Source: Shewanella sp.
GTDB lineage: Bacteria; Pseudomonadota; Gammaproteobacteria; Enterobacterales; Shewanellaceae
DNA length: 57,695 nucleotides
Direction of reading: 5' to 3'
NCBI GenBank assembly: GCA_021462625.1
Contig: JAJNAU010000004.1
Coordinates: 1-57,695, forward strand
The notes below the pieces were generated by a model that did no database searches, had not been told where the DNA came from, and worked only from the letters and a program-made list of their open reading frames with translations. The position numbers and the translations under genes are program-made. Positions 6,785 through 44,929 of the stretch are shown in pieces (within the stretch, counting starts at the first letter, position 1; the number at the start of each line of letters is the position of its first letter).

Positions 6785-7929
6785 AGCATCACCTTTTTTA
6801 AACAGTCGACAATATAGGTCTGCTGAGGCTGACTCAAAGCAGGATGCAATGGCAAGCTGAGGATCTCATTATAAAAGGCTTCAGCTTTAGGATGCTGTCC
6901 CTGAGTAAAACCTAATTTTCGATAGTAAGGTTGTAAATGTACTGGGAAATAATGCACATGTACTTGTATATTTAATGCGCGCAACTTATCAAAAATATGG
7001 CGGCGTTGGGTTGCATCGGTTAAACGCACAATAAATAGATGATAACTGCTGACGCTATTTACTAATGGTGATACTCGGGTAACAGGTACATCTTCCAATA
7101 ATTGCTCATATTGTTCAGCAAGCTTATTGCGAGTTTGCACAAACTCCTGCAGGCGGGCCATTTGACTCAACCCCAGCGCAGCCTGCAACTCTGTCATGCG
7201 GTAGTTATAGCCCAGCTCATGTTGTTCGTAATACCAATCACCTTCGTTGGGGCGTTGCATTTGCTCCGGCGTTTTGGTGATCCCATGACTGCGCAACAAA
7301 GCCATTTTGCTTGCAAGCTCAGGACAATTGGTCATGGCCATGCCACCCTCGGCCGAAGTGATTATTTTGACAGGGTGAAAACTAAAAACTGTGATGTCTG
7401 AATACTGACAGCAGCCAACCTTATGGCCGAGGTAATGGCCACCTATGGCATGGGATGCATCTTCAATTACCTGAACACCAACTTCTTGTGCAAGCTTAGC
7501 AATAGCTTGCATATCGCAACTGTGGCCACATAAGTGCACAGCTATGATCACCTTAGGTAAGCGGCCTAGCTTCGCCGCAAAAGCGAGTTTGTCTGCCAAA
7601 GCCTGTGGGCACATGTTACCCGTTGTCGCATCGACATCAACAAAATCGATATCGGCACCACAGTAAAGAGCGCAATTTGCCGAAGCAACAAAGGTGATAG
7701 GTGATGTCCAGACAATATCGCCTTTACCCACGCCCAAGGCTAAGCAGGCAATGTGCAAGGCCGATGTGGCACTATTAACCGCGACACCAAACCGAGCCCC
7801 GGTATAATTGCACACTGCCTGTTCAAATGCGGGAACTTGTGGACCTTGTGTGAGCCAGTCAGATTTCAGCACCTTGATAACCGCATCGATATCGGCTTGA
7901 TTGATGTCCTGCCTGCCATAGGGGATCAT
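6781..7929 (-). CDS. pseC: UDP-4-amino-4,6-dideoxy-L-AltNAc transaminase PseC
   Basis: 382-aa DegT/DnrJ/EryC1/StrS family PLP aminotransferase. It converts the 4-keto sugar made by PseB to UDP-4-amino-4,6-dideoxy-beta-L-AltNAc. Signatures include IPYGRQDIN at the N-terminus (typical for PseC), NSATSALHIA, EDASHAIGG (about 156-164) and the PLP lysine in SFHPVKIITSAEGG (K188). The start overlaps the pseB stop by 4 bases (7926-7929). Confidence 0.94.
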   Translation of the reverse strand: MIPYGRQDINQADIDAVIKVLKSDWLTQGPQVPAFEQAVCNYTGARFGVAVNSATSALHIACLALGVGKGDIVWTSPITFVASANCALYCGADIDFVDVDATTGNMCPQALADKLAFAAKLGRLPKVIIAVHLCGHSCDMQAIAKLAQEVGVQVIEDASHAIGGHYLGHKVGCCQYSDITVFSFHPVKIITSAEGGMAMTNCPELASKMALLRSHGITKTPEQMQRPNEGDWYYEQHELGYNYRMTELQAALGLSQMARLQEFVQTRNKLAEQYEQLLEDVPVTRVSPLVNSVSSYHLFIVRLTDATQRRHIFDKLRALNIQVHVHYFPVHLQPYYRKLGFTQGQHPKAEAFYNEILSLPLHPALSQPQQTYIVDCLKKVML

Positions 7930-23155: not shown

Positions 23156-23169
23156 TTGATATAAATCAA
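23156..23169. promoter_or_regulatory. FNR/EtrA-type box upstream of cydA
   Basis: TTGAT-ATAA-ATCAA is an exact match to the FNR consensus TTGATNNNNATCAA. It is about 310 bp upstream of the cydA start codon and about 340 bp from the plus-strand unit starting near 23520, so which transcript it controls is uncertain. FNR/EtrA control of cyd genes is known in related bacteria; the role here is inferred. Confidence 0.65.
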
Positions 23170-23496
23170 TCTAATTCAAGGTGTTGACATCGTTTTGCGG
23201 AGAACAACACAGTTCTGCCGCAACCACCATTGCCAACCACATCAAAATGCAGTAGGGAAGCGACAACACCAAAAACAAACTTAATTTTTATCAAACTTCA
23301 CCACAAATCCAAGCAAAAATCGACATAAATCCAAATATTAACATTTAAGATTCAATTACACACGATATCACACTTGTAAACTTCAGTTACAACTTACATT
23401 AAAATACATATAAATCAACGAGATAGAGTTATAACCGGATTAATCAAAGCAAATCTTTAATTAGTTTTATTATTGATAGCATGGACTTTTTCTCGT

Positions 23497-23525
23497 TTGA
23501 ACAACTAAGCCACAATTAATAACAT
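23497..23525 (+). promoter_or_regulatory. Candidate sigma-70 promoter of a small transcription unit
   Basis: TTGAAC (-35), 17-base spacer, TAACAT (-10). This would start RNA near 23532, giving a transcript of about 250 nt to the strong terminator at 23749-23781. Confidence 0.4.
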
Positions 23526-23621
23526 ATGCCCTGTGTTAAGGAGACGCCTGATACACCCAACAAGCAGTATGGTGTGTCAACTCCGCGCACCTATCATCGA
23601 ATTTGTGTGGGGAAATTTGCT

Positions 23622-23699
23622 ATGAAACAGTTTTTTGAACGTCTAGTTAACTATTACCGCCCTGTTTTTGTTGAGCTTTTTAAGTCAAGAGAGCTCTAA
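23622..23699 (+). CDS. Possible 25-aa micropeptide
   Basis: ATG at 23622 encodes MKQFFERLVNYYRPVFVELFKSREL, then TAA; a basic, aromatic, amphipathic sequence. Upstream is only a weak purine stretch (GGGGAAA), but the ATG overlaps the stop of an 18-codon ORF (ATGA), which allows coupling. The frame extends in phase to ATG 23526 (57 aa), but that start lacks a ribosome-binding site and would precede the predicted transcript start. A terminator follows 50 bp downstream. Family not recognised. Confidence 0.4.
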   Translation: MKQFFERLVNYYRPVFVELFKSREL

Positions 23700-23748
23700 T
23701 TCAGGTAAAGACAGTTTTACTATTCTTAAGTTTTGTTAACGCAAACCT

Positions 23749-23781
23749 AGCTCGGTTACTGATAAAGCGACCGGGCTTTTT
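23749..23781 (+). terminator. Intrinsic terminator of the small unit
   Basis: AGCTCGGT / ACCGGGCT stem (one G-T pair) followed by TTTTT. The only U-tract is on the plus strand, so it ends a plus-strand transcript, although no annotated-size gene precedes it. Confidence 0.8.
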
Positions 23782-24054
23782 CCGTCTTCATCACTGGATA
23801 CCATTGTTCATTAAAACCCCACTTTTCTGTAAATACACAATTCAAGATACCTCAAACCAATATTTCATCTACTTTGGTATTTACTGATACTCCAGCATTC
23901 GCCCACATCTGCCTTCACCCGCCTATCTGAGAAAACAGATCGAAATGTTATCCTGCCTGCGCCGCTGTTTTTTGGCTGTTACATTTTCCTTCATCAACTT
24001 ACATACACTTAAGATACGAACAAAATCCTGTGGATCTCATAGATTTTTTTGAAA

Positions 24055-44547: not shown

Positions 44548-44741
44548 GGTACGACGAATGGAGCACACTGAAGGAATGGAGATAAGTCACGGCCATGCGA
44601 AGACATCACATAGGTATGCAGAGCACCTGTCCTGTCAGTAGCGCTCCATAGTAATAGCTTTCCATCATCCCGTTGGAAAATACTATGGCAGTGCTGTCCC
44701 TGTTCGGCAACAACCCCAGCGACTGGCCCTGATAAGCTCAA
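44548..44741 (-). pseudogene. Possible truncated gene fragment beside the MITE
   Basis: The minus-strand frame reads SGPVAGVVAEQGQHCHSIFQRDDGKLLLWSATDRTGALHTYVMSSHGRDLSPF and then runs into the MITE edge. The composition is protein-like, but there is no family match and no continuation on the other side of the element, only nhaC. Could be a remnant removed by the insertion or a chance ORF. The rest of 44742-44929 holds only a hairpin-rich stretch (AAGCGGTTGGGG.. / CCCCAAATCCGCTT) that probably ends etfA transcription. Confidence 0.25.
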
Positions 44742-44929
44742 TCACTTCGGCACCAACTCCTTTCCCGATCGATCACTAGTATCATCCTGGCAATCGGTAC
44801 TGATAGGTAGCGCAACCTCTACTTAAGAACACCTTAATCTCAGGCGTGAGGGAGATAAAACCATAAGCGGTTGGGATATTGCTACCCCAAATCCGCTTCA
44901 AAACCGCTTATCGTGACCAATCTCACAGA

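Follow-up and report, generated by a model that had tools for sequence, protein, structure and literature searches.

A putative GcvA-controlled gene for a 25-residue small protein between cydA and purL in Shewanella

The intergenic region between cydA and purL in Shewanella raises the question of whether it hides a gene and, if so, to which signal this gene responds. In the window, i.e. the whole analysed stretch of 57,695 nucleotides, this region holds a putative monocistronic and unannotated transcription unit, whose transcript of ~250 nt would cover positions 23532 to 23784 of the plus strand, the start being deduced from the -10 element. The initial annotation had noticed there a promoter-like pair, an AAGGAG, a hairpin, two tiny ORFs overlapping as ATGA and a terminator, all of which were recovered. 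A generic single-sequence scanner listed neither the promoter nor the terminator of the unit, which, folded as a whole, shows only mild stability (z -2.15); the single-sequence statistics are unimpressive, and the case that can be made from one sequence alone is weak. The unit stands above chance because it is conserved, in terms of DNA, peptide, promoter, compensation within the terminator and selection on the second ORF. Taking this evidence as a whole, we consider, with a probability of roughly three in four, that the locus is a stand-alone Shewanella gene, in which a ~250-nt transcript under GcvA control encodes a 25-residue amphipathic small protein.

Conservation in relatives, which had been suggested as a check of the unit, was found both by a DNA search, in which 24 of 60 relatives, all Shewanella, match the unit region, and with peptide profiles. 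A first profile search retrieved 44 named loci, again all from Shewanella, and a broader profile found the peptide, in one copy each, in 115 of the 128 Shewanella genomes that are at least 95% complete. Outside this genus, no credible match to the peptide profile was obtained in 296 genomes of the order and 369 of the class, and a peptide search of plasmid and phage collections gave no match. Every Shewanella locus with both flanks readable has cydA and purL as neighbours and the unit in a constant orientation, transcribed away from cydA. The peptide is missing from 13 Shewanella genomes (e.g. G005, G017, G018, G152 and G282), apparently through loss or strong divergence, and most of them still carry a second small RNA preceded by a GcvA box, described below. 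No Rfam family matches the unit, and no earlier report of it was found in a literature search that covered mainly the main texts of open papers.

Regarding its control, the unit is preceded by a predicted sigma-70 promoter defined from alignments, with a -35 element TTTGAA (23496 to 23501, plus strand), just before which lies a conserved TTTTTCTCG, and a -10 element TAACAT (23520 to 23525, plus strand; consensus TANNAT). The arrangement TTTGAN-N18-TANNAT, with its spacer of 18, is present in 58 of 58 units. Further upstream, the window carries ATTAGTTTTATTATT (23460 to 23474, plus strand), a copy with two mismatches of the GcvA-type LysR box ATTAG-N5-CTAAT, centred at -65. Across the 58 units, the box has no mismatch in 20, one in 31 and two in 7, the background rate of two mismatches or fewer being 4.7e-4 per position, and it is centred exactly at -65 from the inferred start in 57. 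A phylogenetic footprint from the literature places the GcvA repeat ATTAG-n5-CTAAT at two positions before E. coli gcvB, with centres at -65 and at -43 (PMC5002191).

CTAAT was recognised as the GcvA motif of E. coli, and this assignment was then tested on other genes. In several genomes, the same box directly precedes Shewanella gcvA, a gene assigned with NF008352, which scores 485.8 bits where the cut-off is 288; it also precedes gcvTHP in eight genomes, carrying 0 to 2 mismatches. Membership of the unit in the GcvA regulon is thus argued on sequence by the box at its promoter, by the presence of GcvA in the same genomes, and by the same box at gcvA and gcvTHP. However, a study of Shewanella regulons described the GcvA motif of this genus as wholly unlike the E. 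coli one (PMC3223726), a statement that conflicts with the box seen before Shewanella gcvA and gcvTHP. The GcvA repeat at the unit promoter points to glycine metabolism rather than to an oxygen switch. In the window genome, the two mismatches of the box come together with an altered 3' hairpin (TTAACG...CAAACC), so that GcvA control may be weaker in the window's own species. As a separate observation on the glycine cleavage genes, the loci L118 to L125 show, upstream of gcvT, a second conserved half site (TTCGGATTAGAAAATTCTC) after the GcvA repeat, adjoining the gcvT promoter.

As to the product, ORF2 (23622 to 23699, plus strand) has 25 codons and the translation MKQFFERLVNYYRPVFVELFKSREL. 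Its mean pN/pS over 53 distinct coding sequences is 0.34, compared to 0.82 ± 0.21 in column-permuted null alignments, and its variation falls mostly on the third codon position, with entropies of 0.51, 0.44 and 1.04 at the three positions (permutation p 1.5e-4, a value to be read as indicative since the 53 sequences share descent). The Ka/Ks check suggested by the initial annotation thereby turned out in favour of this ORF. Besides, ORF2 is kept in clades with a diverged leader, and a Shine-Dalgarno sequence GUGGAG lies at the right distance from it. In genome G137, the open frame counts 24 codons from stop to stop, hardly beyond the peptide, and the situation is similar in several other genomes; the start of ORF2 is therefore fixed. 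These data argue that the 25-codon ORF is a protein-coding gene. The consensus of the peptide is MTKLFERLVNSYKRVFVELYTAREL, with invariant Y12, F16 and E18, and residue conservation spans its whole length, with no runs of one regulatory codon. It is predicted to form a strongly amphipathic helix with a net charge of about +2 and a hydrophobic moment of 0.54-0.65, which is attained by 0.05-3% of shuffles. The membrane micropeptide envisaged in the initial annotation does not fit these features, since the helix is charged and amphipathic rather than membrane-spanning. Neither Pfam nor NCBIfam contains a match to the peptide, and a profile search of the PDB returned nothing; these 25 residues would define a protein family of the near-core genome of Shewanella that neither Pfam nor NCBIfam lists and that the collections of plasmids and phages lack.

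The same cannot be said of ORF1 (23569 to 23625, plus strand), whose 18 codons overlap ORF2 as ATGA. As a gene, it was rejected: the frame upstream of ORF2 is open for 0 to ~60 codons depending on the genome, with unrelated sequences. The ATGA overlap, found in 53 of 53 sequences, is universal because codon 2 of ORF2 always begins with A, and the AAGGAG (23538-23543), being 25 nt away from the ORF1 start, is too far to serve it. Out of the two tiny ORFs first proposed as possible micropeptides, the 25-codon one thus holds, by its purifying selection, while the 18-codon one is not conserved.

Translation of ORF2 may be governed by the leader. Its 5' GGAG arm (23540 to 23543, plus strand) is predicted to pair with the CUCC at 23581-23584, forming helix A, whereas the longer CUCCGC (23581 to 23586, plus strand), an arm shared by both structures, may instead form helix B with the Shine-Dalgarno region GUGGGG (23607 to 23612, plus strand; GUGGAG in relatives) and hide it. 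Helix A pairs in 120 of 120 cells over 30 sequences and helix B in 180 of 180, counts that come from near-invariant GGAG and CUCC columns beyond covariation testing, the shuffle control of helix B being likewise uninformative. The two helices are mutually exclusive; RNAalifold picks the closed form, and single sequences fold either way. Between the two arms, the predicted leader hairpin TGATACACC/GGTGTGTCA (23549 to 23579, plus strand) shows a compensatory change in L047, the nearest relative, where a G-C pair has become A-T, and the central hairpin of the main clade covaries.

At the other end of the unit, an intrinsic terminator (23749 to 23781, plus strand), with its stem before the T-run in nearly all units, shows compensatory changes at five of six stem pairs, so that the covariation check suggested for the structure was positive for both the main-clade leader hairpin and the terminator. 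In view of this compensation, of the promoter common to all units and of the purifying selection on ORF2, the hidden transcription unit with micropeptide and terminator that had been supposed is, on comparative grounds, real. Just before the terminator, a predicted 3' hairpin (23730 to 23747, plus strand) is in the window a degenerate copy of GTTTTGTTAGCGCAAAAC, a near-invariant hairpin; 50 of 59 distinct units carry its first 16 letters, GTTTTGTTAGCGCAAA, without any change. It is kept also in clades with a different leader, and the motif occurs once per genome in seven genomes with an exact copy. An exact-match target search with the seed complement TGCGCTAACAA, which has only a few occurrences per genome, established no target in trans. 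One match, seen in G003 only, precedes a porin-like gene by 36 nt. The gene kbl (glycine C-acetyltransferase) was considered as a target and rejected, the 14-nt match in G272 being absent from 15 other Shewanella kbl and following codon drift.

The near-invariance of this hairpin, together with a GcvA box and promoter layout matching those of gcvB, could mean that the transcript is a purely regulatory small RNA, which takes over the function of GcvB and contains the ORF merely by chance. Indeed, GcvB (RF00022; E. coli, Vibrio) resembles the unit in being a small stand-alone transcript that ends in a terminator and has a GcvA repeat with its centre at -65, and none of 10 Shewanella genomes has an RF00022 hit above the cut-off. 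Nevertheless, the RF00022 covariance model does not match the unit even at E 5, and the unit, which is not located beside gcvA, appears to encode a conserved protein whereas GcvB is non-coding. The codon-level selection on ORF2, which outlives the divergence of the leader, makes such a reading unlikely, and if Shewanella has a counterpart of GcvB, a second transcript that shares this promoter is more likely to be it.

In the preferred reading, that of a GcvA-controlled small-protein gene, glycine-bound GcvA would activate the transcript, as it does for gcvB in E. coli. The CUCCGC arm would leave the ORF open when paired with the 5' GGAG and closed when paired with the Shine-Dalgarno sequence, thereby setting ribosome access. 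The hydrophobic face of the peptide might then dock on a protein, either an enzyme or one in the membrane, that takes part in the metabolism of glycine, one-carbon units or amino acids; the Gcv enzymes of the regulon are candidates, as are dehydrogenases, the kind of partner that AzuC-like peptides have. As the least certain and frankly speculative step, the RNA might also base-pair in trans through its invariant 3' hairpin. Shewanella is a model genus for respiration, and in this reading the new family would have a known regulator, GcvA, as well as a signal open to testing, glycine.

By analogy with AzuCR or VcdRP, the unit is possibly a dual-function RNA, as it combines an ORF under codon selection, with a Shine-Dalgarno sequence in place, and a near-invariant 3' hairpin. 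VcdRP of Vibrio cholerae (PMC8672173) has a similar layout, with a leader of ~100 nt, a conserved ORF of ~25-30 codons, a conserved 3' element and a terminator over a total of ~250-300 nt, but it is repressed by CRP, uses a four-cytosine seed and lies at another locus, whereas the C-run of the Shewanella unit sits in a variable terminator stem and its regulator would be GcvA. Homology of the peptide to VcdP drew no support from the 296 and 369 genomes searched with its profile, a sample that may or may not contain Vibrio. AzuCR of E. coli also yields a small peptide, of 28 aa, from a small regulatory RNA, although it is CRP-repressed and has a different neighbourhood. The two peptides share a weak pattern, K-I/L...N-x-Y-x-x-x-F; the score of their local alignment is reached by 0.56% of shuffles and the hhalign probability is 9%, so homology to AzuC is only suggestive. 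In the same way, SgrST combines on one transcript a small ORF and, distal to it, an RNA element, but it has another regulator, and its seed is better conserved than its ORF, unlike the unit, whose ORF is conserved genus-wide. The fullest version of this idea, which we put forward tentatively and with more doubt than confidence, would be an RNA with two inputs and two functions: glycine, through GcvA, would set transcription, a second signal acting on the three-arm leader (5' GGAG, CUCC and Shine-Dalgarno) would set translation, and the 3' hairpin would regulate mRNAs in trans, the job of GcvB being split with the second GcvA-controlled small RNA.

A link with oxygen had been proposed from the neighbourhood, by which the unit would be an oxygen- or FNR-regulated respiratory micropeptide tied to the cyd operon. 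Small subunits such as CydX are known in bd oxidases, the position beside cydA is invariant, and a perfect and conserved FNR-type palindrome, TTGATATAAATCAA, lies in the same intergenic region at 23156-23169. However, this palindrome is ~330 bp upstream of cydA and ~370-380 bp upstream of the start of the unit, whose promoter holds the GcvA box instead; in addition, the peptide is charged and amphipathic, and purL is a neighbour as constant as cydA. The oxygen link is therefore not supported and is considered highly improbable. A CydX-type oxidase subunit in particular was rejected, the unit being transcribed away from cydA and its amphipathic, charged peptide not being a single transmembrane segment. 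Regarding cydA itself, the palindrome is found within one mismatch in 24 of 24 loci, at about 270-345 bp upstream of the gene, which is unusually far.

Two further readings have hardly any chance of being correct. A leader peptide or attenuator of a downstream gene, which a short ORF ahead of a terminator, together with the alternative pairings of the leader, may evoke, lacks a gene to control, as no same-strand gene follows and purL is in opposite orientation with its 3' end beyond the terminator; moreover, conservation extends along the whole peptide instead of marking stretches of a single regulatory codon. A type I toxin-antitoxin peptide, for which the small size and the structured leader able to hide the Shine-Dalgarno sequence would speak, is as implausible given its occurrence once per genome, at a constant position, in nearly all of Shewanella, the lack of matches in the plasmids and phages searched, and a charged amphipathic helix instead of a hydrophobic spanning segment.

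The second unannotated transcript mentioned above lies downstream of a motY-like gene and has the same promoter, with a GcvA box at -65 in 15 of 15 cases. It was located at L100:1501-1770 (about 6996-7270 of G000:C58 in the genome that the window comes from), and also at L096, L099 and L169-L180, and its invariant core of 30 nt, GACTTCCTTCCTTCAATTTGTTGATTGCAA, is present in 116 of 126 Shewanella genomes when up to two mismatches are allowed. It has a terminator, is not in Rfam, and scores 23.6 bits against the GcvB model, whose cut-off is 42; its CUUCCUUCC suggests a pairing with Shine-Dalgarno sequences. The micropeptide unit and this second GcvA-driven small RNA together suggest how the glycine response might be wired in Shewanella, in which the search of 10 genomes found no recognisable GcvB. 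Finally, elsewhere in the window, a lysine riboswitch (RF00168) was found at 44631-44829 on the minus strand, with 112.9 bits.
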